A stretch of 64,000 nucleotides of DNA from Pocillopora verrucosa (lineage: Eukaryota; Cnidaria; Anthozoa; Scleractinia; Pocilloporidae). The notes under the pieces were generated by a model. The model did not search any database, was not told the DNA's origin, and saw only the letters and a program-made list of their open reading frames with translations. Of this stretch, positions 32,952 through 60,400 are shown piece after piece. Numbering within the stretch: position 1 is the first letter of the stretch; every line of letters starts with the position of its first letter. The translations under genes and the position numbers were made by a program. The DNA is taken from positions 10,268,795 to 10,332,794 of the forward strand of contig NC_089322.1 of assembly GCF_036669915.1 (NCBI RefSeq), written 5' to 3'.

Positions 32952-34867
32952 TTGCTCAATTTCTTTGTCTCGTGGCCAGGGGTTCTTGGCTTAGAAATTT
33001 CCGATGAGGCTTTTGAGAAATTAATGATGAGCCTTTCTGGATCCTTTTACCTTTTGAGGCAATTCTTAAATGTTGATAGAGATGATTTCAATAAGATTGT
33101 GGTTTGTCCAAAGTGTACAAAACTGTATAAGTACGACTCCTGAATTTCGATGATAAACAATCGACAGGTGGCAAAAAAATGTGGCGACACTCATTACTCC
33201 AGAGGAAGAAAACTAACTTGTAATGCCACTCGTGACAAAGGTTACTCTTCATAATGGAAAAACTTGCTTCTACCCCACCAAGTACTACTGCAGCAACAGC
33301 ATCATAGACGAGCTGGAGAAGTTGGTCTTGAGAAAAGACTTTCCCATAAATTGCGAAGTGTGGAGAAAACGAAAAGTGGAATCAAATACCTTAGCTTTTT
33401 TTTTGATGGAAATCTATGGAAAGAATTCCAGAACGTCAGTGATTCCCCTTTCTTGAGTAAACCACGAAATTATGGGTTTATATTGACCTTTCACTTTTTC
33501 CAGCCGATGAACACTGTAAGGATTATTCCGTCGGAGTGTTTTACTTGGCAATTTTAAATCTACCTAGGTCTGAACGGTTCAAATGGGAGAATATCGTTTT
33601 TGTAGGCGTTGTTCCTTCATTGAGGAGAGAACCCAAAGATTGAAATAAATTTCTTGAGCCAGCTGTGGATGAGTTGAAAGCCTTGTGGAAAGGGGTCAAG
33701 ATCAAAGCTAGCCTTAGTAGATTTGCTCTAATGTTTCGTGATGCCGTTTTGTGTGTATATACTGACGTTCCTACGACGAGAAAGATCTGTGGATTCAAGG
33801 GGCATTCAGCTCAACTTGGCACGTTGAAGTTTTTAGGTGGTTTTGGGGAAAAAGAGATTACTCTGAATTCAAAAGAAGCTTATGGAAACCTCGCACAAAT
33901 GAAGAACATCGTCGAATAGCCATTACTCAGTGCAAAACAAAAGCGCGACGAAATTTGCTGGGGCAACAAAGTGGAATCACCTAATATAGCATTTTACTGC
34001 GACTCGATTACCTTGATGTTATTAGATTTTGCACGGTTGATCCTATGCACAAACTCTTTCTCGGAACTGTCAAAAGAATGTTCAAACTATGGACATACTC
34101 AAAACTTTTTTCGCCCAGCCAACTGAACGAAATCGAGGAAAGAATAAAATCATTTGAGGTTCCTAGTGACATTGGACGATTACCGATGAGGATAACGAGG
34201 AATTGTGGTTCATATGCAGCAGAGCAGTGGAAGAACTGGACACTCACTTATTCTAATTTCTGCCTTCAAAGTATTCTACCAGAGGAACATTTCCGGTGCG
34301 GGCAGACATTTGTGTTTGTATGTAGATATTTTTTGCAAGTCTGCTACTACAAAAACAGAACTTGACATTGTCGATGGATTGATTCTTCAATTTTGCAAGT
34401 CAGTGGAGACTCTATATGGAAAAAATGCCATTACCCCAAATATGCACATGCACAACCATTTGAAAGAGGTTATTCTCGACCACGGACCAGTTACTAGCTT
34501 TTGGTGTTTTAGCTTTGAACGATTTAGTGGAATACTAGGCAGTATAACAACAAACAAGAGATCTGTCGAACTCCAAATCATGAGAAAATTCATACTAAGA
34601 TTCCCAAAGGACATGAAACTACAAAACCAGTTTAAAGGAGATTTTAAATTTCGTTCACCTGATGTTTCACCTTCCGACTGGCTTACGATCTATGAATTTT
34701 CTTATATTGCAACAAATGTGCCACTACGTGGAATAAACTTGTTGAATAAATCGGAGATTAATGTTTCGCCATGTTACAAGCTTGTTTCTTTTGATACCGT
34801 TGATTTGAAATTACTGACCGCCGTCTACAGAGTGTTGTACTTTGAGGGGCGAATTGAAGCAAGTTAA
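32952..34867 (+). pseudogene. EnSpm/CACTA-type (tnp2-like, DUF4218) transposase relic
   Basis: Pieces in the right order but in different frames: DDFNKIVVCPKCTKLYKYDS (about 33080), KVTLHNGKTCFYPTKYYC and SIIDELEKLVLR (33240-33330), LAILNLPRSERFKWENI (33547-33600), VDELKALWKGV with TTRKICGFKGHSAQLG (33665-33835), VDPMHKLFLGTVKRMFKLW (34035-34095), then ITPNMHMHNHLKEVILDHGP and FERFSGILGSITTNKRSVE (34430-34570). These match the layout of animal EnSpm transposases: the CPxC region, the GHxAxLG segment, the DPMHNLFLGTAKHM segment and the C-terminal DUF4218 block. Several frameshifts (for example between 34300 and 34345) and stops disable it. No terminal CACTA repeats were located. Confidence 0.88.
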
Positions 34868-34869
34868 CT

Positions 34870-35780
34870 CACAGAAACTATATATAAATTTGGCTCGTTT
34901 AAAATATGGTTACCTACGTATGGGTCCAAAATACAAACAAGAGGATACTAGCATTTTGGCCAGCAAAGAATGAAAAAGTCCTTCAAGACGCGTTTTTTAT
35001 CTCCAGGCATCGTTCAGTATTATTTTACACATTCATTCAAGCTAGGAGAGGAACATGTCACGCACTACTTTTCTTGTTTAAGATGGTTTTTTAGCCCATA
35101 AGGAATCTTATTTTGCAAACCCAATTAAATCTACAAAAATAAATTCCTTCCAGGAGGGGACAGCATCGTTTTTGCCAATTCAGAGGGTATTTTCCAGGTT
35201 TGCTACAACTAAACTTGAGCTGGAGGGGCAACAAACAATTGCTATTGCACAAATAACAAGGAATGTGTACTTATAAAAATATCGCACACAGGCATTTACA
35301 GTGATCCCTACATCAAAAAGTAAAGGGATCTTCGTATTAGAAATAGTAGGTATCTTTCCACAGGAGAAATTCCTAATTGCTTTAAAGAAAATTGTGGTAA
35401 TAAGAATGTTCGACTGTATTTCTAAAGTTCAGCTAAATAATAAGTAAATATCCAATAATTTCATACAATTAGCATATTTTTTGGATAAGATTTAACTGTG
35501 ATCTCCTAAAAAGATTCCACTTAAGGTTCCAGCTTCCATCTTTTATGAGCAAGCAGATTCCGTATAAACAAGTAGTATGCTTTCCAGTTCAAAGGGAAAC
35601 AAAATGTGACCTTGACAAGATACAGTCACAGTTCATAAGTACATTCTAAAACGTAAAAGTGAAATGATGCCTTTGTTTCAGTTGAAAGCCCACAACAAAA
35701 AACTGAATATTTTTCTGTTAATATTATTGTCAAACATTGACATAAAATTTAAAATCATCCAACCACTAACTAATGAAAAC
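34870..35780. other. Intergenic, nothing supported
   Basis: AT-rich stretch between the EnSpm relic and the left end of the long-TIR transposon. It may include the tail of the EnSpm element. Confidence 0.4.
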
Positions 35781-35782
35781 TA

Positions 35783-36928
35783 TGGGCGGCCGTCACCACC
35801 AAAAATACAAGGATGTCAAATAGATCAGCAAATACAAAAACGGTGTAAGGATCAGCTGCAGGATAGAATAGCTAATAAAGGAATGGCATGGCCAAATTAT
35901 AGACGGTTTAGTCTTCCCTCGTGAAACAGAACACCGTAAAAATGGATAATTTAGCCAAATGATAAACGGTCTAGTTGCCCATGTCGAGTTGGAACATATA
36001 ATTGTGAAATGGAGTAAATCAATTAAGAATAGCTTAGCACTCATGTGCAATACAGTACTCAAACGGTGTAGCGTTGCGTCAAATGGCTCAGATTAACGTC
36101 GAGTAGCACAGCGCACGCACAAACGGTGTAGCGTTGCGTGAAATGGCTCAGCTTAATGTAGAATGGTACAGCGTACACACATGTGGTGCAGCGCTGCGTG
36201 AAATTGGCTCAGCGTAATGTCGAATGGTACAGCGTACATGCAAACAGTGTAGCGTTGCGTCAAGTGGCTTAGCGTAATGTCGCATGGTACAGTGTACACA
36301 AAAATGATGTAGCGTTGCGTGAAATGGCTTAGCGTAATGTAGAATGGTACAGCATAAACACAAATAGTGTAGCGTTAGGTCGAATAGCTTTGCAGAACAT
36401 GAGACGCTCTATCTGAACATTAAATTGCTTAGTATTACTTGAAATCTTTCGATGTTGTGGCGAATCGTCGAGCTTGCTTGTAGCGTGACGTGAAGGCCAT
36501 GCCATTCCCTTATTAGCTATGCTATCCTGCAGCTGATCCTTAAGCCATCTTTGAATTGCTGATCTATATGACATCCTTGTATTTTTGGTGGTGACGGCCG
36601 CCAAGGCTATCTCGCCGAAACCACCAAAAACAGAAACCGGAACAGCGATCTGCTGGGGGCATGACGTCATCGAATGTGAAGACTGCCGCGAAACCATCAC
36701 ATGGCGTAGTCGCTGTATTGAATAGTCTTCACTTAGCTTTGCCGTAAAGCAGAGCCAATTCGGTAAGTCTCTTCTCTTTTTTCCCCGCCGATATTGTATT
36801 TATTCGTTGTCGTTCATGAAAGCGTCAATTAAAATAGCAACAAGACTGAATTCCACCACGGTTTGCCAGCCTCCCGGTTTACCACAGTTTGCACGTGTTG
36901 GTGGGCCTGAATATGTGTATAGTATTAA
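35783..36928. repeat. Left terminal inverted repeat
   Basis: The outer 821 bp (35783-36603) is itself bounded by inverted repeats of about 110 bp: the stretch from TGGGCGGCCGTCACCACC through 'ggatgtcaaatagatcagca' returns reversed at 36495-36603. Inside it is a 60-bp tandem array. The inner part (36604-36928) includes 'ggtttcgcgg'-type sequence, 'catgacgtcatcgaatgtgaa' shortened here, and 'ccgggaggctggcaaacc' in reverse, all matched in the right arm. So the arm combines a foldback module with a unique inner section. Confidence 0.85.
36068..36395. repeat. 60-bp tandem array in the left arm
   Basis: About five and a half units of the pattern 'gtagcgttgcgtgaaatggc' + 'tcagcgtaatgtcgaatggt' + 'acagcgtacacacaaacggt'. 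Because 60 is divisible by three, an open 20-codon periodic frame appears on the minus strand; it has no start context and is not taken as a gene. Confidence 0.93.
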
Positions 36929-38003
36929 GTAGTGTTATGACGTGCATTAAATGTCGACTGTCGAGCTCTCTTTTCTTTCTCTGACTCACGCTTACTTTTC
37001 AACGAGGGTTCAACTTCAACGGCTCTTTGAACACTGGAGGAGTACATGAGAAGTTGAATTTTGTGTGTGCCCTGGACGCCATGGTACGAAAACTGATATC
37101 CTTGATCTGTTTTGACATTTTTCAATCAAAGTGATATCGGAATGCTTTAATTGGTGTGCCGGACGATAAGAGTAAGCTGAGAGAAGACTGTTTATATTTA
37201 TTATTTTAAAGAAGTGTACATTATATTGCTTTGTTTAGTAATTTTTCCTGAGTGCAGTGATAGTAAAAGTAAGATCTATTTTTATTTTGTCGATCAAAGG
37301 TAAATTACATGTCTGGATCGGAATCAGTTAAAGGTTTTTTTTCGCGTTCTAAAAATAGTGTTTGCCACAGTAATATTTTTTACTGAGTTGGTTTAGCGCG
37401 CATACATACCTATCTTCCCTGCGCTCTTTCCCATTTCGTAGTCATCACGTATTAAGGAAGGCTAATGCGGACACCGTAATGCGCGTAGTTGTACGTAATT
37501 GTCCAAATCTAGGTCGAGTTTTACCGTTCGATCTGTTACGGTCGCAACTTGCTGTATAAAAACTATTGCATAATTCAGACAATTGACAGGACACCTGGCT
37601 GTTTCGTCGTTTGTTTCAGTAGACGTATTTATTTATATTTTTATTTATTTTTACATTCTTTACCTCAACTATTAATTTTTGCGATTATCATTATTATTAT
37701 TATTATTATTATTGCTACAGACTGAGTTCGGTACAAACTAGATACATTGACTATAGTTGCGTGACTTGTGACGTTTCTCTTCTTGCCTTTAGGGCTAAGC
37801 AAAGAAAACTTCCATTCAAAACGTAATCAACTTACAGGCAAGAGCTTTTAAGCCCCGCCGCAGTGTTAACACAAACGTTTGCATATCAGAAACACACTTT
37901 GTATCCTTTAAACAGAGAATTCAAGAAAGCACCGACAAGTGGCATTGGCTTCACTACTGTGTCACAGGGTGCTTGAAATTAAAACTCTTATTTTTGTTGA
38001 CAG
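36929..38003. other. Inner flank between left arm and integrase exons
   Basis: No exon is certain. It includes a (TTA)n run at about 37690-37714. The 5' exons and promoter of the integrase-like gene should lie here if they survive; the HTH-type N-terminus usual for this family was not found. Confidence 0.4.
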
Positions 38004-39355
38004 GTTGCAAACAATCGAGGGTTACCTTGTTTCCCAAGGTGCACGTGTGCAGAGGTGGAGACTAAGGAGTGCCATAAAGAGAGTCGATCACATTGGTAGG
38101 AGGCTAAGGTCTATGAATGCCATCCGTAGACACGTGTATAACGTACTTTCCCCACTGGCCCTCTGGCATATGGACGGGAATCACAAACTGATACGGTAGC
38201 TGTCACCTATCTCACTATTTTGATGACATATTTGTTGTTATAATTCAGGTGTCAATAACTTTGCACCATTTGTTTTAGGAGCAACCTCCCCCCCCCTCTC
38301 CCCTTCACAAGTTATCAACATATACTTTCGGTTTGCCACTCTATTCCTTCTCTTCGTAGATGGCGATTCGTGGTTCACGACTGTATTGACGGTTACAGTC
38401 GCTCCGTCGTTTACCTTAGGTGCGATACGAATGACACGTCTGACACAGTCTTGCGTCTCTTTGAGGGTGCGGTGTCCTGAATGGGGATTGCCATCACGAG
38501 TCAGGGGCGACATGGGAGTTGAAAACAGAGACGTGGCACACTACATGTTGAGCCATATAGCGAGAGGGCCCAGAAGAGGGAGTTACATCACCGGACGAAG
38601 TGAGCACAACTCGCGTATAGAAAGACTCTGGCGTGATGTGTACAAGTTAGTCCTGTCCTCATTTTACGACCTTTTCCTTTCTCTCGAAGCATGCGGTCAG
38701 CTCGATCTTGACAACGAAGAGCATCTATTTTGCCTTCACTTCACTTATCTCTCAATAATCAACGAGGTCCTTTCAAAATTTGTGCTATCCTGGAATAATC
38801 GCAAAATACGTACTGCAGGAAACAAAAGTCCTTTACTACTGTTCATACTAGGGATGCAAGAAATTGCAGAAGAAAGTGGTATTGTGGCATCAGATTACTT
38901 TCAAAGCCTTATTCAGGTAAACGCAATAATGCATATGACAGACACAGTTCCCCAGGCATTAAAGCCACACAGGTGAACAATCTCAAGTGGCCTGCACTAA
39001 AAATTGAGTTTTAATTAACCACCCCTTCAATTTAAATACAGATGATGATCGAAACGATGCCAAGATTCCTTGCTTGCAAAGTTAATTTAAGGCAGTCATA
39101 ACCAGTGTTTTGCGGTATTTAAATCTCCTTTCAACTATATTTCAGAGGGACTTGGAGGGATACAGTGTGGATCCTACGGCTTACTTTCATGACAGCACAG
39201 ATGATGCACTACAGAATGAGGTTGTTGTCCCCCTAACACGGTGTCCGTTAGATGCTGATTCGTATACGATTTTTGAGGCAAGCATGTCAGAAGTCCAAGG
39301 CGAAGATCCATGGGAAATGTATCAATTGGGACTTTTAAACAGTATAATAGGTTAA
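38004..39355 (+). pseudogene. DDE integrase-core (rve-like) transposase candidate, one frameshift
   Basis: Three exons with good splice sites: 38004-38195 (after TTGACAG), 38360-38972 and 39146-39355 (stop TAA). The phase across the first junction restores [19 protein letters not shown]. It belongs to the animal family of integrase-core proteins whose signature is LWHxDGNHKLIRW followed by IDGYSR, GLPSRVRxDxGxEN and RIERLWRDV. The candidate catalytic residues are present: D in MDGNHK, D in VRGDMGVEN and E in [10 protein letters not shown]. The C-terminal exon has VVVPLTRCPL as in relatives. An extra base near 38478 (after FEGAVS, before EWGLPSRV) shifts the frame. The N-terminal DNA-binding part is missing or not recognised. 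It probably encodes the enzyme that moved the element. The single frameshift could be a sequencing error. Confidence 0.85.
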
Positions 39356-39380
39356 AACGTAACGGCTTTAAAAATTGCGC

Positions 39381-39386
39381 AATAAA
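39381..39386 (+). promoter_or_regulatory. Poly(A) signal candidate for the integrase-like gene
   Basis: AATAAA 25 bp after the TAA stop, about 180 bp before the end of the opposing HECT-like gene, so the two transcription units converge here. Confidence 0.55.
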
Positions 39387-39569
39387 CGTCCCTCGCTTTT
39401 CTTTTGTATCGAGTTGGATGAGTATTTGGCATCATTAACACATAAACTTTGCTCTTTTCAATGTATTTTCATTTCGTTCATCTCAGGCCCATTTCAGAAT
39501 TTTCGCCTCTACAGTGCTACTGTAAACTAAATTCAACTTATAAATAAAAAAACACCTTGTCAAAGAGAG

Positions 39570-42079
39570 TCAATCAGAAATCAGTAGTTTTAATTGGAGA
39601 CGGCCAAAGTAATCATTTGCGAATGCGTAGTCAAAGAAAGAGAACACTTCTTCCTTGGTCATTGATACATTCTCACCTATCGGCAAAGTCAGCCTGCTAA
39701 TACAAGTGTTGCCCATAGGAAGGCAAGATGGCATATTCGTATCAAAACAAATAATGGGCTTCATTTGGAAACTCAGAACAGGCTCGTTCTCGTATCCAGT
39801 GACGAACTTTAAAATACAATGGAGAGATATATTGCCATCTAACCTTCTTCCAGCTAAAAAGAGAAAAACACAATAATAGCAGTGCTGTCATAAAGCTCTA
39901 AATCCCGATTCTTTTTTACGCGCTCTGTGGAAATTTCGATTGGCGAAAAGCAAAGTTACATTTGTCTAGCTAGCGATGATGTTTCTTAGACCAGACAAAA
40001 GAAACGACAGTTACCTTACACCTCTTTCAAGTAATTCAGGAAGAGTCTGTATGTTTTTTCTTCCCGCTGTCTTCGATTAGTCGCTTCGTCGGAAAAAATA
40101 GGGTCCAGCAGTTTCACCAGTTTGGGGGTATGTCATAGGCAGCACTGTTGTCTTTCTGAAGAGGAATGAAAGACTCGGTTTCCCATGAAGGAGCTAACAG
40201 ATTAATAGAAAAGCAAGATTCATGGAATCTATGTAAAATTGTTAGAGACTGTAGTCATAATTGAATTTGGTTTTCTTGCCTAAGTAAAGGGTGAAGACCG
40301 TCAGTTACAACCGGTCACCTTGAAAGCTTACCTAAACGAGTCTGAATCTCTCGAGTCCTACCCGAAATTGGGTTTCCGCTTCCCCCAGATTAGTCAAATC
40401 ATCTTTTGTGAAGATTCGCTGAAGCTGGTCTTCAGCAAGGAAAGTAAGCAAAGGACCACCTTGCAACAAACTGAAACCTGCAATAAAAAGGTAAATTTAA
40501 ATTCTTGTGTGCCCAAGTGAAAATTACGTAGGTGTCTAAATAGGCTTTGCATATTTACCAAAAAAGAGGCCAGCTCCATAATACTGTTTCCTGTCCAATG
40601 CTTCTTTTTTCTCAAAAAAAAAACGTAGCCTTCTCCTTCTTCCTTGAAGAGCTTGTCACGTATTTCGCGCATCACCATGCCCAAAAATTTCCACCATAAT
40701 CTTGAGAGCCCTCGCCGGTGAAGATCACCTCTAAAGGTACACTGAAATCAATCGCTGGCGGATCATCCCTCGATATCTTTTCCATTGCATCATCGAAGAG
40801 GCGGTAACGAGAGACAAATATCTCCGTGGTCTTTCCCTCACACAGTTCAGAGTCGTTTTGAAGGTCAAGCATTCGCCCTCGCTGTAACCTTCGCCTGAAC
40901 TCCCCTAAGAGTTGTGTAACAGGCTCGTCACAAGTAGCCCTGAAATAAATTTGAAATGATCAAAGAGGCGTAACGCCCGTGAAATTTAAATAATTCCCAA
41001 AAGTATGCGGTGACACATGCGTTAAACCGGTCAACTAACGAGCAGTCGGCCCGATTGTATTTAGCTTCTTACACGAATAGTTGAGAGCCAAAGTCAAAGT
41101 AGTAAAATCAACTAACGCATCTCTGCACATAAAAGGTTGTGCTTAGCACATTATATCATTGGACGGACGCCTAATTTCCACGTTCCTTCCCTTAAAACGA
41201 TATCACAGCAAACGTTCATACACACTAACACCAACTACACTGTAGGGTACGGAAAAGACAATCAAGCAGAATGTACCAAGGATAACTCTATCAATTTGTA
41301 CTTACATAGCTTTTAATGTTTCCTCTGATGCATTTCTCATATGCTCCTCGTACGGGACAGGTTCCCTAGGCAGATAGCAAGGAACAACTATTTGAGGGGG
41401 GCTTTTAGCGGGATGGTAGAAGTTTTCATGCAATGTTCATGATGTTACAATAAACTGTAAATTAGTGTATGACGGCAGCAGCAGTGTATAATGGATGTAC
41501 ACACGGTTAGTCCATAGAAAACGATACAGGATTGGCGTTTCATTCCCTTAGACGCACTTGAGAAACTCTTCAGCGCCTCCTAAATAATCAACCTCCACGG
41601 GTAATTTTAACATGGCTAAGAAACTCACTCTTTATTGGCAGCTGCTTCGCCAAGACTTATTGAAGCCTGTTCAGTACCAAGAGGAGGCTGTTCTGGCAGT
41701 TCCAGTGAATTCTGCTCAGTGCCACCAGGAGGCTGATCTGGCAGTTCTGCTGGGGTTAACTCGTTCTTCCTCTCTGAAATATTGATTATACTGGTGTAAA
41801 AAGCCACCTTCAGCCTTAGCACAATGCCCCATGTTAATGCCCCATATATGATATTAATATAAAGTATAAAGTCACTGATATCTTAAACGTAATTAAAGCT
41901 AACAGTGCGTACAAAAGGAATTTCTAACTACGTGAAATACCGAAAACAACTTTTAGTACTTTCTAAAAGCGTGGGAACGATAACCACCATGCGAGTGGGG
42001 TGACCACTTCTACTTACCTCCTCTCTCCAAATGCTAGCGGCAGATCATCGTCGGATGTTTCTGCAGGCCTTGTTTCACC
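39570..42079 (-). pseudogene. HECT-domain E3 ubiquitin ligase-like gene (G2E3-like), damaged
   Basis: HECT enzymes pass ubiquitin from an E2 to a catalytic Cys and then to substrate. Minus-strand exons with splice sites: 42079-42018 (acidic, ETSDDDLPL), 41773-41629 (PDQPPGGTEQ / PEQPPLGTEQ repeat), about 41430-41306, 40939-40559, 40477-40332, 40155-40015 and 39853-39570. N-lobe landmarks: VPLEVIFTGEGSQDYGG, EIRDKLFKEEGEGY, YYGAGLFFG joined across an intron to FSLLQGGPL, and LLDPIFSDEATNRR. C-lobe: LKFVTGYENEPVL and LPMGNTCISRLTLP, with the candidate catalytic Cys present. Lesions: a frameshift removing the PRRE-type residues after QDYGG (about 40676), another at a T10 run (about 40614-40623), one near 40128, and in-frame stops at two exon ends (40332-40334 and about 40017). 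It runs tail to tail with the integrase-like gene. Confidence 0.82.
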
Positions 42080-45000
42080 CTACAAACAAATTATTCCAAA
42101 GGAAAAAATTAAGTATTCGCAGAAGGCTCAATATTTTACCCAGAAATAGTCGCAAAAACGTCACCAGCAAAACACAAACCCGACACGTTTCCATATGGGC
42201 TCGCATCCCGCGCAGTGGGATAGACATATTTAGTACTGATTCTGCTATTCATCAAACCTCACAGGGACTCGATAAATAAAAACCACTTACTTCCCGAGCC
42301 AGTTCTTTTGTCATTGTTCATTGACCTAGGTCGCCATACAGTTCTTCAAAATCCGTCGTTCTCCATCCCAAACACTCACCTATTACAGGAAAAAGCATCA
42401 ATAAAGTCAACTGCTCTCGATCGAATTGACTGCTACAGAGTTCGAAGCGTCCAAATATCCTGTAAAATTGCCATTTCCTCCCATCAAAAAAACTTCCCAA
42501 CGCGCCAAAATATCCCATATTTTCCATGTTAAGTGACGAGACGCCACGTTGAAAACTATGACTGAAATAGTTAAGCACGAGCAACGCTGATCTTCAAATC
42601 GTCGGCCATAATTGTTTATATTCTTGCAGGGAAGTAAATTAGTCCTCAGGTCCTTTTCGGAATAAAAATATGCCAGGCGTTGAATGCAAATTCAGTAGTC
42701 TTGGCGCGAAAATTTAATTAAAGCAAATCAAAATTCTGACATCATGTCATCGCTCTGCCTCGAAAAATCCCAAAGATTTATTTGCAGGTCTTCTTTTCTT
42801 TTCTTTTCATCAAATAGAAGGTCTGCGGTGCTCAAATTGTATAAGCCATGGTACAGAACACGCTTCTTTGCAGATCGAGCCGTGATCGCCGCCATATTGA
42901 ATTCTCTTGATATTCTATTGTTCCGGAGTGTAATACGATTTACCGCTGATAATTGCTAGCGGGCTCGAAATGTCCTTGATTTCTAGCGATGGGTGAGCTT
43001 ATCACGCCCAGCGAGGCAAAAAAAAGTTCTGGTAATGGTTTTTTCTGTTAAAAATTGTAGTGTTGTTTTAATAAGTTGTAATTGCATTAAGTTGTAAACA
43101 TTGCTTTTAATTAATGTCCTGTTTTCATCCTCTAACAGATCAAAAAAGTCATCCTAATGGAGTTGAGTAGTCATTTTTCCTACAGAAAGAAGGTCAATAC
43201 TGCATGCAAATGAACTTAGGTATGATTTTAAAGATATTTGTAATGTTTGTGGTTACACTTAGTGGAAGGACTAGTGACAGTAGTGCACCGAATTAAAAAT
43301 GCATTATTTTCTCTCAACAGTACTCCAATTAACCTATGAAACTACAGCCACCGTAGAAAGATGTGAATGTTTACGTGAATTAGCTCGTGAGGAAGTTGAT
43401 ATTCCGATAACTTGGAGATGACAACAAATACTGTGAACAATCGAATGCACAAAGTCAGTCCTACTAAATGACAAAAAGGGGTGAGGAATATTTATCAATA
43501 CTGCTTCAAGACTTTTTAAAACCTCCTCAAAATGTTAAACATAGGATGCTGTTGCTTTGTTCTTTTTCCGGCTGAAAGGAGAGTTCAAGTTAACAAGCTC
43601 AGAATACCTGGCTTGTAGGCCCTGGGACCAGTGTTCCAGAAGTCCTGATAACTTACTAGTTACGTAAAGCTATTTCTTTTCTCATGTAGTCAATTTTTGG
43701 TGTTTGTGAAAACTTAAAAGTACCATACTTACTTGATTGAGAAGATGGGCTTGTTTACACAGGACTAAAATCTACAGCGCCACTTGAAAGAAAATGAATT
43801 AAAATAATCGCTCTCGGAACCGATATGTCTTCCGGGTTTTGAGAAACGCATCCGTGCCTACTACTTATTTTGAGAGAGCTAAGTGATAAATCGCAAGACT
43901 TTTAGTTTCTTGGCCTCGTTGGTGGAAATTTACGAGAGATTCAATTTATCTTTCCAAACCATGGCCAACACATCTCTTTCGGTATTGGGTCAATTGCAAA
44001 CTATCCAGGTCATGCAAAAGGGCCTCCGTATGTAGAAGAAAATGTGTAATCATCAGTTACCTCTATTCTCACCAGGGATCCCTTCGAACAATGGTGAATT
44101 TCAGCATGTTACGTGACTCCAAACCCCTGGGATTTTAGCATGAGAATGGTTATGCAATCTTTTACACGTTTTTTGGCTATATAATCTTATTCCGGTGCGG
44201 TCAGTCCTTTATAACCTCAAAAGTCCTTTCCACGGCGTTTGAGGAGGTTTAGCTAAGTGCGCCCCTCCCTCCTTCCCGCAGCCATGATAGCGCCTACGCT
44301 CCAGGTAGCTACCTACTCACTTCCGCCTCGGGCTGGCCTTTCCCATATCTTATAACATCCTTGAGGCTTTGTTTGTGGGTAGCCCTTGTGAGAATATATT
44401 ACTATTTTCTGGGACTCTCTGTGCTCTCTGGGAGGAACTGCTTACGCGGTTCTGCCGCCTGCTCGCGTAAGGGTGGACCCTCTGTAAGTGGCAAAAAAAT
44501 TATTAGAGAAAATGCCTCTGTTAATGCCTTCCTTGCAGGACCCGAAAAAAACAGAGTACATTTCTGAATTTTATGAGAAGTTGATCGTACGGAATTCATA
44601 CTATCAAGTGAAAATGAAATGCATCGGCGCGGGTAAAGCTTCCGCAAATGAAAGAGAAAAGTCGCTCCGCTAACGGGCAAAGGACACTTTTGCATACAGG
44701 TGTAGAAAAAGAAAAACACGCAATAGCGCAGGAAAATTGATTGATAAGCCAGACAGGACGGTTCCTCTGAGAACGAGAAAACTCGAAAGCCTTTAAGATT
44801 GATTTAATGTTCATGCACGCCAAACAGAGTTACCAGTATGGTACAAGTTTTCATTTTTGTTTAAAATAATGTAAATAAGGTCTACGGTCTAAAAAGCATA
44901 ACAACTCAACCCCAGAGATCTCATCCGTGCAGAGACATTTTTACGTTCCATTAAGGGAAGGGCTGAAATGAACACAATTTTTAGGGGTCTTGGCCGAGAG

Positions 45001-46799
45001 CCTATTGATGCAGCGGTGTCGGACACAGCCATGTAGACAAGTGTCCAGGGTGAGGGGTATAGGGGTGCAACGAAGAGTTTCAAACCCTGACCTATTCATA
45101 CCCGGACAAGTTCAGATCCTGTTCAAGACAGAGAGGTTAGAAAACAAGCTGCTCCCGTAAGCTACCGCAAAGTTTGTGTCTTTTACAATTCAAGCTCTTA
45201 CTCGCTTTTTCAATCGTTTTAAGAATGTGTATTTCAAATGGTTTTGTGAATGCGGTAAAGGGCATTTTCGTGACTCGTGATCGGCTCTTGTTCTCCCCGT
45301 GAAATATGAAACTGCTAACTTTTTTGTCGTGAATTGTGATTTTCAAAGTGGTCGTGAAGCGTGATTTTGTAAAATTACTATCCGTGAAACGACAAATGAA
45401 TGTTTAATTTGCTGTGAATCGTGAGTTTAAGGTTACTTCCTACCTTCAGAGACCTAAAAAATCGATTTTTATTTCATTTGACAAAACTGAATTCAAACAT
45501 TCAATCAAATGTTTCCATGGAAAAAATATCTGATATCTTTAAAAGCACAGTTATTTAGAAAAACGTATTTTCAAATAAAAGTTATTAAATCAGGAAGGTG
45601 TCATTATCTGGGACCTGGGTGAGTTCCCTGGGGGAATTTTCGCGGCAACCGCTCATGTTGAGGCTCGATCTTCATGTTACTTCCATATTTTGTTTACATC
45701 GCACACTTTACAAAATTCACACGTGGAAGCTCTTTGTTTATGGAAAAATCTTTGCGCATGGAAAAAATCAACAGCGGAAGAAAGTCCTTGGGAGAAAAAA
45801 AAGGAAAAAAAGGCAGGCCCAAAGAAAAGAAAGGGTAGCACTCTGTCAAGCAAAGAACACAATTCTTTTGTGAAAACGATTAGTACTAACGGAGCTTCAC
45901 GCTGGCGCCCAGATTTCGAACAAAGAGGTCCGATGTAACCAAAATTTACCATACATAATGTTTAAAGCGAAGTTTCCTTTTCTATATACAAGTACTAGTC
46001 TTGATACAAAAACATTAAAAATCGCCTCGAATCGTAATTTTGAAAGCTGTATGTTGATTATTTGTCTTGCTCCTCAGCTTTGCAGTTTTTTAAATTTTTG
46101 CAGCGGGTTTTTCCTTTGCCGTTGACCACTTTGCTTATCATTGTGTTGTCCTCTTCAACGCTCCACTGAGCAATCGAGATAAAAAAAAGAAAAAAAAAGT
46201 CTGCAATGGGTTACTTTTATCGGGAAATCTTAATCCATAGTCATTGACGCCAGGAGGTCCCGTTGTCCTATTGGTTTGCGGTTTCCTGGGGCCAGATAAT
46301 CTTCTGGCGAGGCGCGAGTTGTTTGCAAACCTTTATAAGCTGAAATCTGGCATTTGACTTTAGGAGGAATACCGCTATTTTGAGCGAATTTATAGGGTAT
46401 ATAGATTTGACCGATTTTCGTCAAATTTCGCCAAAACATCCTAGGAATGATGACAAACGAAGCTGTGTCGGGAAATTTTGATATTTGAAAAATTTGTCCC
46501 GTGGCGTCCATTTACGCAATACGACTCGCATATTTTTAGCTACTCCAACTAAGGATGCCGATATGGACACAACTAATCAGAATATCGAAAAAGCCTGACA
46601 CACTTTTGTTGATTGATGCCTCGTGAATGAGACTGTGCAGCCATTTTGCTCATGATCCAGCATCTGATACCCGATGAATTCAATAGAAGAACCTTCGGTC
46701 GTTTAACGCCTTACCGGCTCTTGACACTTCCGTGAAAGAAAGTCGCTCAAATTATGTTTTTATCGTAATCTGCAGTTATTAAGCTTTCTTCTGATATGT
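42080..46799. other. Unassigned interior of the long-TIR transposon
   Basis: Mostly unannotatable. 42320-42540 (-) ends at an AATAGGTGAGT donor and may be an upstream HECT-gene exon. 46230-46511 has a minus-strand open frame that looks repeat-derived. 45300-45420 has repeated 'cgtgaa..gtgattt' phrases. No third recognisable enzyme was found. Confidence 0.4.
43138..43421 (+). CDS. Possible 3' exon pair of a small plus-strand gene
   Basis: Candidate exon 43138-43219 (ending EGQYCMQMNL at TTAG/GTATGA) could join 43321-43421 (after TCTCAACAG), giving LQLTYETTATVERCECLREL and REEVDIPITWR before TGA. The phase fits, and the amino-acid composition looks protein-like. No family recognised and no start found. 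It might be a cargo gene of the transposon or chance. Confidence 0.25.
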
Positions 46800-47766
46800 A
46801 GTTTGCATACTATAAACATTTAGGCTCACCAACACGTGCAAACTGTGGTAAACCGGGAGGCCGGTAAACCGTGGTAGAATCCAGTCTCGTTGCTATTTTA
46901 ATTAACGCTATCACGAACGACAACGAATAAATGCAATATCGGCAGGGAAAAAAAGAGGAGAAACTTACCAAGTTGGCTCTGCTTTACGGCAAGGCGAAGT
47001 GAAGACTCTTCCACACAGCGACTACACTATGTAATGGTTTCGCGCCAGTCTTCACATTCGATGACGTCATGCCCCCCAGCAGATCGCTGAACCATTTGTG
47101 GTTTGTATTTTTGGTGGTTTCGGCGAGATAGCATTCAGATCACGCCACAAGCAAGCTCGAAAATTTGCCACACCATCGAAATATTTCTTATAATGCTAAG
47201 CAATTTAATGTTCAGTTAGAACGTCTGATGTTCAGCAAAGCTATTCGTAATGCTACACTATTCGTGTGTAAGCTGTACCATTCTACATTACGCTATGCCG
47301 TTTCACGCAACGCTACACCATTTGTGTGTACGCTGTACCAATCGGCATTACGCCGAGCCATTTCACGCAACGCTACACTGCTTGTATGTACGCTGTACCA
47401 TTCGACATTACGCTGGGCCATTTCACGCAACGCTACACCGTTTGTGCCTACGCTGTGCCACTCGACATTACCCTGAGCCATTTGACGTAACGCTACACCG
47501 TTTGTGTATTGTATTGCAAATGAGTGCTAGGCTATTCGCAATTGAGCTAGTCCTTTTCACAATTTCATGTTCCAACTCAACACGGGCTACTAGACCGTTT
47601 ATCATTTGGCTAAACTATTCATGTTTAGGGTGTTCTGTTTCATGAAGGAAAACTAAACCGTCTATAATTTGGCCATGCCATTTCTTTATTAGCTTTGCTG
47701 TCCTGCAGCCGATCCTTAGACCAGCTGTGTATTTGCTGATCTTTTTGACATCCTTGTATTTTTGGT
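46800..47766. repeat. Right terminal inverted repeat (continues at 49544-49564)
   Basis: Inverted match to 36928-35783. Against the left arm it lacks about 110 bp (the inner copy of the terminal module, expected near 47127), with 'gagatagcattcag' at the junction. After the nested element, 49544-49564 restores the last bases, TTTGGTGGTGACGGCCGCCCA in register. Confidence 0.85.
47245..47505. repeat. 60-bp tandem array in the right arm
   Basis: About four and a half units of the same 60-bp repeat as in the left arm, in inverse orientation. Unit number differs between arms (about 5.5 against 4.5), so the arrays evolve independently. Confidence 0.92.
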
Positions 47767-49543
47767 TCGCCTCATGTAAGGTAATCCAGGACAGTATTAG
47801 ATTCTGGATTCCACGCTGCGGATTCCGGATTCCAGATGCTGGATTCCAGATTCTACCGCTGCAGATTCCGGATTCCAAAACACAAAAGATTCTAGATTTT
47901 AGTTTCTGGTTTGCCCCTAATTTTCGCATTTCGTTTTCTAGGAATGACTTCGATGGCGGATTTCGCTATTGAAGGACATGTTTGTGAATGCATGTTTGTC
48001 TATTCATATTTCCTCAACAACATTTGATATTTATGACAAATGTATAATAGCAAATTAAGGGATAAATTTTTGTTGTAGGAATACCTGTTGAGACTGTCCG
48101 TCTTTTAAATCCAATGTCCATTCATTCCACATCTTTTCAGCAACTCTGAAGAGGCGAGGCCGCATTTCTTTCATACAGGTTCCTCGAGGTTCTTCAAGTG
48201 ATTTAACAGTAACAAAGAACTAATAGTTCAAATCACTGCTTAGCATTTTTAACTTGTAAATAACAGTTGGACTAAAAATTGGCCAATTTTTTAAATATAA
48301 AACTGACTTAGAACTGCTAAGAAAAAAGCTCGAAAATATTTCCCTATCATCTCAAATTACTTTTTAAACCATGTATTGAGCCAAAAATTTAAACCGGAAT
48401 ATAATTTTAATAACACCCCGAGTAAATCACGGACAGAAAAGCTTGTTTTCCCAAATGTAATTGGCGATGATGTTCGACGAGAATGCGCACCAATTCAGCT
48501 ATACTTAAACTTTTGAAAAATCGCGAAAGATCCTCATTTACACGGTAATGTTTGAAGAATAATATTCTCTTTTCTAAATTTCCTTTTTTTTTAAAAGGTT
48601 AGCCAAGTCATATCGCATTACGTCGGCGATGAATCCTTCAGAGCAATGATTCTATAAAGTTTCAGGTGGGCCGCCGCTATTTTCTTTTCTAGAAAATGTT
48701 GTTTGACCTTAAAATCTGGTGATATCTTATCTTAGTCGCACCGAGATATGATGCCTTATGAAATCTTAAGTTTGTTATTCCAAATGCCAAATATCAAACA
48801 TGTCAAAGAAAACGGTTCACGTTTAAATGCCGAACATTCGACCTGTAAATAGACCTTTCCTGGCTTCCATAAATATCCATATATAACCTTGTTCAAAGTT
48901 TATCATAATTGGAAACGTGTGGTCCATCGCCCTGATAAGCTCACTCCTAATCTTGGAAGCGACACTTCCCTTTCACTCTCCCCAGCTGCTTTCTCATCCG
49001 CCGGATTTTGATCCTCATCATCTCCAACATCTTCGTCGTAAAGGTCACCATTAGCAAGCCTGGAGAGCCTGTTGTCCTCCTCAGACGTTAGAGTGATGCT
49101 TGAACCCTTGGCAGTGAATCCCAAAACTCGGGTTAGAATGCAGTTGGGTGAGTTCCGATCACAGACATCGCCGGGAGTATACGTAAGAGGGTCACTTGTC
49201 CAGTTCAGCCACTGAAATTGCACCTTCTTTCGTAAAAAATTGCCTCCATCTACTTCTAATTGAACGTCTTTTAAGAGAATAGCCAGCCAGAATGGCGAAA
49301 TCTCTCTTCTGCGGTTATGTCTCACAGCAACGACTTGAACTGCACTCTACAGTGGTTGCATGGATGCGGGTGAAAGCCGCTAATACGATTTGAAATGGAT
49401 TTTCAGCAAATGGATTCTGGATTCCCTTTTTAGCAGAATCCTGGATTCCAAAAGCTGGATTCTGGATTCCAAAGCTTAGTATTCCGGATTCCACGAGCAA
49501 AATTTCCTTGATTCCGGAATCTGGATTTCCTTACATGGGGCGA
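47767..49543. mobile_element. 1777-bp DNA transposon nested in the right arm
   Basis: Begins TCGCCTCATGTAAGG and ends with the complement of TCGCCCCATGTAAGG; about 21 of the first 23 bp match. TTTGGT flanks it on both sides (47761-47766 and 49544-49549), and the left arm shows the same site uninterrupted. Both subterminal zones hold many copies of 'ctggattcc' / 'ggattccgg' (47796-47885 and 49380-49535). A minus-strand exon-like open frame is inside. Confidence 0.9.
48903..49346 (-). CDS. Hypothetical transposon protein, C-terminal exon
   Basis: Open from an acceptor-like TGTAG just above 49346 to TGA at 48903, about 147 codons. It starts SAVQVVAVRHNRRREISPFW, continues FQWLNWTSDPLTYTPGDVC and ends with an acidic tail rich in D and E (YDEDVGDDEDQNPADE). 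Resembles C-terminal exons of uncharacterised transposon-linked proteins that I recall from corals; no enzyme motif. No start codon at the 5' edge, so upstream exons would be needed. Lies within the nested element on its minus strand. Confidence 0.45.
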   Translation of the reverse strand, partial: SAVQVVAVRHNRRREISPFWLAILLKDVQLEVDGGNFLRKKVQFQWLNWTSDPLTYTPGDVCDRNSPNCILTRVLGFTAKGSSITLTSEEDNRLSRLANGDLYDEDVGDDEDQNPADEKAAGESEREVSLPRLGVSLSGRWTTRFQL

Positions 49544-49961
49544 TTTGGTGGTGACGGCCGCCCATACAAATGACCTATAATATCAAGACAAGCTTTAATA
49601 ATTATTCGATCTAAAAGAAACACATTTATAATTCGCACTCAGAACAAACGCAAATCAAGTCTAAAGCTAAAAAAAAAAATTTTTATCGAAGTTTGGAAAA
49701 AGTAACGAAGCGAAAACTGACTAAATTAAAAAACCTTCAGTGTAAACTTACTTCTGTGGCGGGTCGTTACAACAGTCTCACTTTACTGGTTAGCAGATTC
49801 TCCAGGTAAGCGGATTTAGAAACAGAAAAATTGATAACAAAATAACTTCTTTCTCACTTCGATTCCGGTGAAAAACTGACTTAAAACATAATAATCTAAC
49901 GGCTTTAAATCAATCTATGGAATTAATGTCAATCACGATTCTTGTCATTAATTAAATTTGT

Positions 49962-50190
49962 CAACAAGAGGCAACGCCTACAGTCCTAGTGGTAACAAAT
50001 TCAGATTACCCATTAAAGAAATGACAACTGAAGAGCTGGATATTTGCCTAAATTTTTTTGCAAGCATGCGAGAAAATTCGACGGCACACCTAAAGAAAAA
50101 AAAAAAACAGCTTTGTTCAGTGCGATCTTGGCAGCCATTCTTTCGTCGCTAGCCCATACAATCTCAGCCCTTATTTCGGCTACTCAAGAT
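49962..50190 (+). pseudogene. Transposon-like coding fragment, unassigned
   Basis: After an acceptor-like AACAAG the plus strand reads GNAYSPSGNKFRLPIKEMTT and EELDICLNFFASMRENSTA, then a long A run followed in a shifted frame by LAAILSSLAHTISALISAT. The EEL..CL..F pattern recalls N-terminal regions of tyrosine-recombinase-like (Crypton/DUF3504) proteins, but the fit is weak. A diverged copy lies at about 28690-28880. Broken in both. Confidence 0.3.
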
Positions 50191-50311
50191 AGAGTGTACA
50201 TAGTTTTTTGGAAGTGAAGTTGCTCTAGTCTTCCTGTGGTTGTCAAACCAAATAAAATTTAGATGGTAGAGTTATCAACTGTTTGCGTTTTTACTAAAAT
50301 AATTACCCTGT

Positions 50312-51330
50312 GACTAAATGCCTGGCAGCCGGGCACGGTCTCCAATAGACTAAATGCCCGGCAGTCAAACATTTTCACGCAACTTCCACCAAAACTTCTT
50401 CGTATTATCAGATGTTTGTTAAGAAATGTCAAGCGATTCCGGGTATTCAGTCTATTTGCGATCGTGCCCGGCACTCTGTTCAAGAGTCGACAAATCGAGC
50501 GATTTTGTGATTCGCTCAGCTGGAAAAATTGTCCACCAAATAATTTTAGAATCACTTGGGAAACCTAAACAAACATCGAATACTGTATTATTAACAAGTT
50601 TATTTGAGGTGACTGACCCTTGCTGTCACGCCACAGTTGTCACGAAGACAACATATTCTACGAAACCAGCCTGACCTCCCAAGCTTTAGAGCAGGTTCAT
50701 GCGGTTTAAGCTTGATCACTGAAAAACCAACGCAATGTTAACATTGCTTGACATTTCTAATCAAACACCTGACACTCTTGGGAAGTTTGAAGAACCTTTC
50801 AGTGGCATTTTGATGAAAATTTATGACTGCCGGGCATTTAGTCCATTTGAGACCGTGCCCGGCAGTCTTATTAGGAGCGTAGAATTTCCAAGTTGTCGAC
50901 AAGCGAGCAATATTATAGTATGCACAAGCTCAGAGAATTTGTCGGCTAAAAAACCAAATAAATGTTTGTATCGTTTGACATTTCTTAACAAACATTTGAT
51001 TATCTTAAATATGTTGAAAGAACCTTTCGGCGGAAATTGCGCGAAAATTTCTGACTGCCGAGCACTTAGTCCATTTGAGAGACCGTGCCCGGCAGTCTGA
51101 TCAGAAGCATAGAATTTCAGTGTCGACAACCAAGCGATATTGCATTATGCACAAGCTCGGATAATGTATCCACTAAAAAAGCAAATTAATTTTTGGAATC
51201 GCTTTACATTTCTAAACAAACATCTGATACTCTTGGGAAGTTTGATGGACACTTTCAATGGCATTTTGGTAAATAATTCTAACTGCCGGGCATTTAGTCC
51301 ACTTGAGACCGAGTCCGGCCGGGCAGTGTG
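50312..51330. repeat. Hairpin tandem array, about 228-bp units
   Basis: Each unit has a hairpin with 12-bp arms GACTGCCGGGCA / TGCCCGGCAGTC and a 19-20-nt loop 'tttagtccatttgagaccg', then 'agaatttctaagttgtcgac', an AT-rich spacer and 'cgcttgacatttct'. GC-rich stems stand out against AT-rich spacers. Confidence 0.88.
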
Positions 51331-52099
51331 ATCAGAAATGTAGAATTTCTAAGTTGTCGACAACCGAGCGATATTATAGAATGCACAAGCTCGGAGAATT
51401 TGTCCACTAAAAAAAACCAAATAAATTTTTGGAATCGCTTGACATTACTAAACATACATTTGATATCGCCTCTTTGAGAGTTCCTTATGTTCATACAAAT
51501 TTTCGCCATTGCGGTGTGGGTGAACTCACCGTCTAACTTTATTTAAAGAATCGACAGAGGTCAGTTTCCGCTTCGTTACTTTTTCCAAACTTCGATAAAA
51601 TTTTTTTTCCTAGTCAAAATCAACACGTCCTCACTCAGTTGTCCCCGAAAGATACATAAATGGTGGTTCATTTGCATATTGTGAATTTTTAGGCTGATTT
51701 AGGGCTATTTTTGCTCGGTTTTAGTTCATCTGCTCTGCCCTCTAAATAATCCTTTCCAAGGTACGTCTACGAGTAACGCCAAACTAACGAACCCACTGGA
51801 AAAAAAATGCTGTAAATTCGTTCTAGAAGCCCATATAACATCGAAATTGTTAACTTACGCTCTGTTCCTCATTCGAAGGTCATGTAAAATCAAATGGAAT
51901 TAAAGGCCGCGAGTTCCAGCCTAAAGATTTGCCGAGACCCTTGGAGTTGAGGCACTCTACAGATATTGCGGTACTCAAACCGTAAGAGCTTTCAAGTTAT
52001 GGTTCAAACTAGTTACATTCGGTGTAACAAGTGACCGCTGAATGTTTCTTAGGACATTACATACCCTTGAATGTATTCGGTGAATGTTGCCTCAATTAA

Positions 52100-57471: not shown

Positions 57472-60400
57472 ATGAACACTACAATAAACTCTACAGATAC
57501 AGAGAACTCCTCTGACGGTAAGTCGAATCTCAAACATTTTGCGTGATTGATAAAGGGCTTTGAAAGAAAGCATAGAATAATGTAAGCTGTCACGTAAACA
57601 TTTTTTTTCCTTATTCAACTATCGTCTACTCATTTTTACTGTGTTTACAAGGCTGATATGGCAACTCCTTCCATTTAATTCAACTCTTGTCGCTGTAAAC
57701 GGCTGCGAATATATGAAATTCATATATTTGAACTGCGGATAAAGACGTGAATATGAAAGCGATCTTCGCAGTTATGAACGCTACTTAAGCAGTAACGAAA
57801 AGAAGGCTTGAAAAAAAATTCAGGCCTGTACGGGATACGAATTCCATATATTTACAGCCGTTTATTCACCACTTCACGGGTTTATTTGGAACCAACACAG
57901 CGACCAACTCCCAGTTGGCTTGTTAGCTCACTTGGTAGAGCACTGCATCGGTATCGCAGAGGTCATGGGTTTATCCCGTACAGGCCTGAATTATTTTCAG
58001 GCCTTCTTTTCGCTACTGCTTCAGTAGTGTTCATAACTGCGAAGATCGCTTTCATATTCACGTCTTGCCGTTGTGGCCAATGGTCGTTTGAGTTGCATTT
58101 TGTCTGTCTTCAACTCGTTTGACGAGATTATGAAACATATTTTTCGCCAAATAAACAATTTATTGTATGATATGTGCTTGAAAGGAGAGGGTCACTAGAG
58201 ATTTATGTTCAACTGAACAACGTGTAATTTTACGATTGTCATTCCATGAAATGCTTCGAATGGGAAGAAAGCGAAACGAGCCGTTTACATTGAACTAATT
58301 ATGGTGCTATTTATCATCGTAAAACTGGGAAGACGTGAGAAGGAAGCTCGTTGCATACTGACGTCGCCACGGTATGCAATAGCAGGATGCTACCATTTAG
58401 CTGCGGTAGTCTCGGTGTATTTTGAAAGGAAAGGCACGTCCATGTAAAGATATTGCAGCACTGTTTTTCTTTACAGTCGAGGCGTTAAAATTCAGAGAAC
58501 GTGTAGCATCTCTTTTGTCGCCTGTTTAATCTGTTCATCGCGAAGTTAGTTAGATAGCAAATTAACTTGCACCTTGAAAACCTGTCGGAGGAAATAACTT
58601 TGTAGTATCATGGGATCTAAGCCAAAGTAAATCACACTCAACGCCATCATGTGCTTGTCCATCAAATGGCGTCATGCGATAATCAGTTTATCAAAAACTC
58701 TTAATTTGAATCCGTCAAATTTTGACGAGTTCATTTTATTGACTTTCTCCCGGCACTTTTTATCTTGTATGCGTGTGACCTTTTTCTTCTGAGGTTAGGG
58801 GGCTTCAACATGCAGTCATGCTTCCTTAGCCTTAGCATTTTTTCACGAGTTTTAAATTCAATAAATGCCATTTGATAGCGAGTCAATAATTCGCTGATTA
58901 CCAAAAGAGCTTTCGTCATTATCATTACTGAATGACCACTAATGCCATGCTCGTGTGCGTCAATGGCCTCTCTTACTGTATAGGCACCTCTTACAAGGCA
59001 ACTGAAAGAAAGCCGAAATAGATATGATTAAAACCGATTAATGAAGGCATAACAGGCTAAAAGAATCATTTCTAATGGACTGATTAGAAAGTACTCTCAA
59101 TAATCACAGGCTATCTTATTTTTCGTGAGGTTGTTGTCTAGACTCCTTTAAAATCCTATTAGGTTCGAATTTTCGTGCTTTTATGTCGGAATCTAAAAAA
59201 ATAATCACCAGATACAAAACACAGATTACCATATGAATCAGGAGAAAATAAACGATTTCTTCATGTTGCGGCTGGTTGAGAGACTAAGCCGTCCAGAAAA
59301 AAAAAATGTTGTTCGAGTGTAACTAAAGGTTAATGATATGATTTTTAACACAGGGCACGGACACAAAAGAAAATACATGTAAATTACTTTTTTATTCGAC
59401 GGATTGGGAGGGCCGAACTGGAAAATATCTGACTCAAGATCATAAGATACAGGCTTTTCCATACAAAAAATTGATTACCATATGAGCCGGGAGAAAACAA
59501 GTAATTTTTTTTTTCGTTGCGGCTGGTTGAGAGGCTAAACCGTCCAGACAAAAAGAAAATTGTTGTTAATGATGTGATTGTTAACACACGGGGCATGGAC
59601 GAAAAAAAAGTACATGCTAATAATTTCAGTTACTTCTTTTTCACTCGACGGGTGGGAGGGTCGGACGGGAAAATATTTGATTCGAGGTCTGGACATACGG
59701 ACCTGTAGCGCAAGGAAACGCCTGACGACTTTTCCAGACCGGCTCTCGTCAACTCGTCGGGCCTCATCGACGTCAGCTTTCGCTCTTTTCGCTAGCGTGG
59801 CCGCACAGTTCTTTTGATGATAACGAAACATGAAAAAGGGAAAAAAAAGGTAGATATTGCAAACATGCAATAACAAGAAAAACCAAAACAAAACAATACA
59901 GAACATACCCCTCTGTTTGCTTTACACAGGGCAGTCACCTGGCCCCAGCTCTCTACATAAGACGATCTTCACAGTACTGTATTCGATGACCATATTTGTG
60001 GCAGTGGTCGGAAATCTTCTTCTGATCTTCATCATCAAAAGAAGACCAGAAACAAGATCGCTGACTGGTTTCCTGTTTGTCAACATGGCCGTCGCTGACC
60101 TTCTGGTGGCTCTGATTGCTATGCCTGTCTCCATGTATATCCTGCACGGTGGTGGGGTATGGGCAACGGGAATGTTTGGAAATGTCACGTGTTCGCTTAC
60201 GTTTTTCACGTTTCATGTCACACTCGGCGCATCCATTTTAAGTCTGTTGATTATGTCAGTGGATCGTTACTTTGCAGTTGCCCGTCCTCTTCACCGTTTT
60301 GAGACGTTTCGAAAGGCTAGAGTCCTAACTGTGTTTATTTGGTTGAGTGCAATGATTTTCTCCATTCCAGCTGCTATTATTTGGAGGCTTGTTCATTGGC

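Follow-up and report, generated by a model that had tools for sequence, protein, structure and literature searches.

Does a stretch of coral DNA in which an integrase gene and a ubiquitin ligase gene lie between long inverted arms represent one mobile element, or unrelated insertions that happen to be neighbours? The stretch is a 64,000-nucleotide piece of Pocillopora verrucosa contig NC_089322.1 (positions 10,268,795 to 10,332,794), called the window below and written C11:10268795-10332794 in the 353-Mb assembly that we searched. Our analysis indicates, with a probability of roughly 0.87, that an old and now broken element stands at this locus, one of a lineage of IS3EU-type cut-and-paste transposons that carry a HECT-type ligase, the family being predicted from the ends, the target-site duplication (TSD) and the type of transposase. 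What appears to be new here is the HECT ligase as second gene; IS3EU/GingerRoot-type ends, TSD and transposase have already been described.

The element in the window

The element (Table 1) has the termini TATGGG..CCCATA and terminal inverted repeats (TIRs) of 1,145 bp on the left and 984 bp on the right that are 89% identical, which agrees with the matched arms of the original prediction, a model's reading of the sequence alone. The right repeat is split by a nested insert of 1.8 kb, which separates its outer 23 bp from the rest and has inverted ends of its own (22 bp, 91% identical, GGATTCC-rich), TTTGGT being probably its 6-bp TSD. When inverted, the arms are collinear over about 1 kb, with 844 of 953 aligned positions identical; they contain tandem repeats of about 60 bp, and an 18-mer from the arm occurs in the whole window only at 35783 (+) and 49564 (-). 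The TA at each side had been taken for a target duplication, but it is part of the termini, and other copies have 6-bp TSDs.

Table 1. Features of the transposon copy, in window positions.
Feature	Position	Strand	Remarks
Whole decayed transposon	35781-49566		starts TATGGGCGGCCGTCACCACC, finishes GGTGGTGACGGCCGCCCATA
Left terminal inverted repeat	35781..36925	+	starts TATGGGCGGCCGTCACCACC; ~60-bp tandem repeats inside
Additional inverted copy of the outer ~109 bp	36495..36602	-	within left arm, not in right arm
rva_4 DDE integrase remnant	38005..39352	+	exons about 38005-38195, 38361-38478, 38479-38916, 39143-39352
Broken HECT E3 ubiquitin ligase gene	39570..42215	-	C-lobe 39573-39854 with catalytic T-C; N-lobe about 40690-40938; upstream exons 41305-41364, 41628-41777, 42017-42079, 42180-42215
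Possible HECT upstream exon region	42791..43045	-	weak, E 0.001
Right terminal inverted repeat, main part	46807..47767	-	inverted alignment with left arm
Later nested insert, foreign to original element	47768..49543	.	1,776 bp, within right TIR
Right terminal inverted repeat, outermost 23 bp	49544..49566	-	ends CCGCCCATA

Between the arms, an rva_4 integrase gene on the plus strand and a HECT gene on the minus strand lie tail to tail with 214 bp between their stops, against about 215 bp estimated earlier. The integrase matches rva_4 (PF24764, E 4.4e-41) and has the motifs LWHMDGNHKL (38161-38190), VRGDMGVEN (38500-38526) and RIERLWRD (38614-38637), all on the plus strand, and its introns are bounded by GT..AG. 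The complete DDE set that had been predicted is present, but the gene is not intact, with a frame break near 38478 and about 160 codons missing, the first ~160 codons of the relative P0001 not being found in the window element. The nearest relative is a 483-residue P. verrucosa protein, 90% identical, from a cluster of 51 members. For the HECT gene, too, the predicted lobes and cysteine stand, with a C-lobe at 39573-39887 (-; PF00632, E 8.4e-6) that contains LPMGNTCISRL with the catalytic T-C. This gene is broken as well, with frame breaks near 40690, 40620 and 40125. The gene reaches upstream to about 42215 and weakly to about 43045.

Recurrence of the gene pair in the genome

Both genes stand tail to tail between TIRs and exact TSDs at three other places: C2:17348483-17359957 (11,475 bp, TSD ACCAGC), C13:9938964-9951899 (12,936 bp, GACATA) and C6:14026077-14033084 (7,008 bp, AAAATA, TIRs of 126 bp at 96%). 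The C2 integrase frame is open over 552 codons and its HECT gene has in-frame stops; both C13 genes have breaks, and the C6 pair is far diverged. At C3:27984044-27989700 (5,657 bp) the TIRs are 85% identical, the HECT frame is open over 395 codons and the TSD is displaced, TGTCAT at the left end recurring 3 bp beyond the right one. A further element, C11:6794338-6798161 (3,824 bp), has the exact TSD CTCTAA and TIRs identical at 402 of 408 positions, and is the youngest-looking. The gene that faces its integrase is short and has at its end a weak remnant of a HECT C-lobe, which matches PF00632 at E 0.066 and so falls short of the cut-off. Both of its TIRs stop exactly after ATG GCN GAC (Met-Ala-Asp), the first three codons of both genes, and the two sides diverge from the first base beyond them; the repeats thus supply a leader and a start codon to both genes. 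When pieces were scanned for exact TSDs with matching TIRs, at a threshold of 15 of 24, 9 hits were found in 240 shuffled 14-kb control pieces and 3 in the window pieces, all in one of 8, while the four exact-TSD elements score 22-24 of 24.

The linkage was also measured over the whole assembly. HECT loci were collected with P0130, PF00632 and the C3 HECT, and integrase loci with P0001 (best 88 of 201 candidates) and PF24764 (best 150 of 229), so the merged totals of 48 HECT and about 110 integrase loci are lower bounds; of the P0001 rows, six that are exons of the window copy and its duplicate were excluded, and PF24764 rows were added only where away from P0001-search loci. Fifteen of the 48 HECT loci have an rva_4 integrase within 15 kb, against a mean of 0.48 and a maximum of 5 in 5,000 random placements, and 12 of these 15 pairs are tail to tail (P 1.2e-5). 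The 15 include the segmental duplicate of the window element (C11:10.348 Mb); the C3-HECT search was seeded with the HECT of a linked element, its four pairs being matched by eye, and the C11:6.79 Mb remnant is counted neither among the 48 nor among the 15. Both genes are inside TIRs in six of the eight linked pairs inspected as DNA (the window, its duplicate, C2, C3, C13 and C6:14.03). Among the 33 unlinked HECT loci, 24 come from the general HECT family search alone and may be host genes; the other nine were matched by HECT queries of the transposon type, and no integrase is listed within 15 kb of them. The complete units and this excess uphold the suggestion that the two genes are linked beyond chance, tail to tail, and travel together.

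Copies of the window's arms give a more divided answer to the genome search that had been proposed. The arm sequence has at least 159 scored places in the genome, a lower bound as 40 of 160 candidates were scored. Among the arm copies listed, as compared by eye, only those in the window and in a 98%-identical segmental duplicate 40 kb away flank the gene pair, so nearly all listed copies are gene-free derivatives. Another pair has arms 5 kb away, at C8:2930323-2932057, but these are in the opposite orientation. Of 30 arm loci extracted, five have both outer ends; two show exact 6-bp TSDs (GATATG, GCTAAT), a third agrees at 5 of 6 positions, a fourth has its 6-mer shifted by one base and the last has none. 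The duplication itself covers window 34281-51543, repeated about 40 kb downstream at C11:10342765-10366000 with 94-98% identity and extra insertions of ~5 kb at window 42030 and ~1.1 kb at 49336.

The gene-free copies might suggest that the arms are two independent miniature inverted-repeat transposable elements (MITEs) with the genes adjacent by chance, which the original prediction had named among the outcomes that would refute it. The missing TSD at the window flanks and the inverted copy of its own end in the left arm fit such an origin as well. We consider it very improbable, since the arms align in order over ~1 kb and the linkage far exceeds the random mean; the recurrence of complete units, with pairs within TIRs and exact TSDs at C2, C13 and C6, contradicts it.

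Several observations weigh against the reading of the locus as one copy from a HECT-carrying lineage. Both genes of the window copy are broken, and its flanks, GAAAAC and CAAATG, share no 6-bp match and thus give no sign of a target duplication. Three of the 15 linked pairs (C8:13.74, C11:12.81 and C1:4.41 Mb) are divergent, and six rely on weak matches: those at C6:4.74, C12:8.15, C8:13.74, C3:5.96 and C1:4.41 Mb, with E values of 1e-3 to 1e-5, and that at C3:18.09 Mb, whose HECT was not recovered with 74 transposon-type HECT sequences. Enclosing TIRs were not seen at C1 and C3:18.09 among the eight pairs inspected. A HECT match lies near only a minority of the ~110 integrase loci. Neither HECT nor TIRs were found over 10 kb at the integrase loci L044 and L046 (the latter partly masked), and three sponge contigs of 3.4-4.2 kb with rva_4 integrases (from a symbiont metagenome-assembled genome, L001-L003) have no HECT at E 0.01 and no convincing TIR pair.

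Relation to known transposons

The original prediction knew of no described superfamily with this pairing; this fails in so far as IS3EU/GingerRoot agrees with the elements in their ends, in the length of the TSD and in the type of transposase. According to the portions of two papers available to us, IS3EU families, which group with GingerRoot, have TA..TA termini and, as a rule, TSDs of 6 bp (Kojima, PMC10045372), and TET-bearing fungal IS3EU elements have the ends TAYGG..CCRTA and an alpha-kinase gene opposite the transposase (PMC12730594). The coral elements have TA..TA termini beginning TATGGG (window), TATGAC (C2), TATGGC (C3), TATGGG/TATGGC (C13), TACGAT (C6) and TATGGA (C11:6.79 Mb), TATGG fitting the fungal pattern. 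Their 6-bp TSD is exact in C2, C13, C6 and C11:6.79 Mb and in two of the five window-family derivatives. They also share a second gene in opposite orientation and an IS3/IS481-like DDE transposase that lacks the HHCC zinc domain. They differ in that the second gene encodes a HECT ligase rather than the alpha-kinase or TET of those fungal accounts, in TIRs of 126 bp to ~1.1 kb, and in the animal host. IS481EU and prokaryotic IS481/IS3 elements have a related DDE core with an upstream helix-turn-helix (HTH), but IS481EU, as far as the available part of its description goes, has TSDs of around 4, 15 or 25 bp and a single protein per family (PMC10045372), unlike the coral elements. Tc1/mariner or another TA-duplicating transposon was rejected, since the 6-bp duplications sit outside TATGG..CCATA.

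The integrase itself agrees with this placement. Its NCBIfam matches are IS481 (3.5e-11) and IS3 (3e-7), both below curated cut-offs, the zinc-binding HHCC domain is found in none of four integrases tested, and HTH_21 is found in that of the C6 element. The DDE triad (D218, D275, E312) is kept in 16 of 16 aligned integrases. A predicted model (mean predicted local distance difference test score, pLDDT, 73) resembles IstA, TnsB and retroviral integrases at E 5e-6 to 1e-4, and the profile finds nothing below E 0.07 among solved-structure sequences. The integrase has no match in phage and plasmid records, and viral contigs gave no relative by alignment of either protein and no exact arm match.

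The words HECT and ubiquitin are absent from the main text of PMC10045372 and PMC12730594 as available to us. Among the open-licence PubMed Central matches listed, none describes a HECT-bearing transposon, none pairs IS3EU with HECT or HECT with a DDE transposase, and DNA transposon and HECT co-occur in a single paper, unrelated in its accessible part; a Repbase entry is possible.

The ligase and its pairing with the integrase

The transposon HECT resembles HECT E3 ubiquitin ligases of the AREL1, E6AP and NEDD4 types in profile, fold and catalytic T-C. Its profile finds AREL1 at 2.3e-17 among solved structures, with further HECT fold matches, and a predicted model, confident from about residue 220, resembles HECT domains at E 1e-11. 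It differs from these ligases in riding on a transposon and in an identity of only 12-19% among the 50 structural alignments listed. The catalytic Cys is retained in every alignment row that has letters there, and the T-C is seen in the HECT of the window, C2, C3, C13, C6 and C11:6.79 Mb. The protein thus has a HECT fold with a conserved catalytic Cys and is predicted to transfer ubiquitin. Some relatives are labelled G2E3-like in databases, though Pfam mostly finds HECT alone (four of five relatives, the fifth having a death effector domain, DED, plus HECT); the N-terminal DED of the Saccoglossus relative P0168 matches at 2.8e-13.

Across six linked pairs (Pocillopora, with a HECT assembled from two database fragments, Montipora, C2, C3, C13 and C6), integrase and HECT identities correlate at r 0.95, a value reached in 7 of 720 relabellings, the true one included. 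The C3 HECT is 50% identical to an acorn worm protein, P0152, and about 35% to the window family of the same genome, a pattern expected of old transposon lineages. Entries from two other corals point the same way. In Montipora foliosa, the integrase P0071 and the HECT P0130 have the same listed longest contig of 264,931 bp, where shifted comparisons limited to contigs of more than 20 kb give 0.001 such matches. In Acropora digitifera, LOC107336547 is a HECT and LOC107336548 is the name given to a Paramuricea integrase, so that consecutive locus numbers would make the two genes neighbours. P0006 and P0191 also have a longest contig in common, of 3,125 bp, which we disregarded because it may be due to chance, 0.48 such matches being expected.

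It could be argued that the HECT gene is passive cargo, captured once and without a role, as many relatives are gene-free or lack HECT and the window HECT is broken. This is unlikely, since the pair and the catalytic Cys have been kept even though integrases of pair-bearing families share only 23-68% identity, and the C3 HECT frame is still open. The matched movement and divergence of the two genes in several old lineages suggest instead that the transposon profits from the tagging of proteins; a ligase kept so long with a transposase should serve the element. The best reading, by analogy with the fungal carriers of alpha-kinase and TET, is that it would be an accessory protein of an IS3EU-type lineage. 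Promoters inside the TIRs would drive both genes, as the start-codon layout at C11:6.79 Mb suggests; the transposase would bind the TIRs, excise the element and insert it at cuts staggered by 6 bp in the target DNA. A host E2 enzyme would charge the ligase, which may then tag some host protein that keeps the element in check, for example one involved in silencing or repair.

We give such a host target nearly an even chance. It is also conceivable, if rather doubtful, that the ligase targets the element's own transposase or transpososome, for turnover or for disassembly after strand transfer. Facing genes and matched divergence fit a direct partnership equally well as a shared host target, but the different modifying enzymes found in fungal IS3EU elements, alpha-kinase and TET/JBP (PMC12730594), suggest host-facing roles. 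A role outside host targeting, transposase control or passive carriage is improbable. More broadly, and only tentatively, somewhat below even odds, the elements may form an ancient animal IS3EU-type class in which the ligase co-evolved with the transposase in at least three deep lineages. It would then counter silencing or repair by the host, and many of the G2E3-like HECT genes of corals, molluscs and acorn worms would derive from it. What looks like an expansion of a host HECT family in a coral or other invertebrate genome may in fact consist of transposon genes. A transposon lineage that keeps its own ubiquitin ligase gives a starting point for asking how mobile elements manipulate their hosts, and the ligase substrates should name either the host factors that hold the element in check or a new mode of transposase control.

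Other observations

The rva_4 integrase at L044 (C8:20436001-20446000) has four near-identical genome copies (C8, C14, C1 and C12), and an open reading frame with RING/TRAF-zinc matches, to which we attach no claim, lies 3 kb downstream of it at C8:20.44 Mb. In the window, positions 57917-57987 hold a single Rfam tRNA match of 43 bits without an ARAGORN call. Inverted arms of 49 bp at 49673-49721 and 51560-51608, 96% complementary and ~1.84 kb apart, flank tandem repeats of ~228 bp and are probably another transposon.

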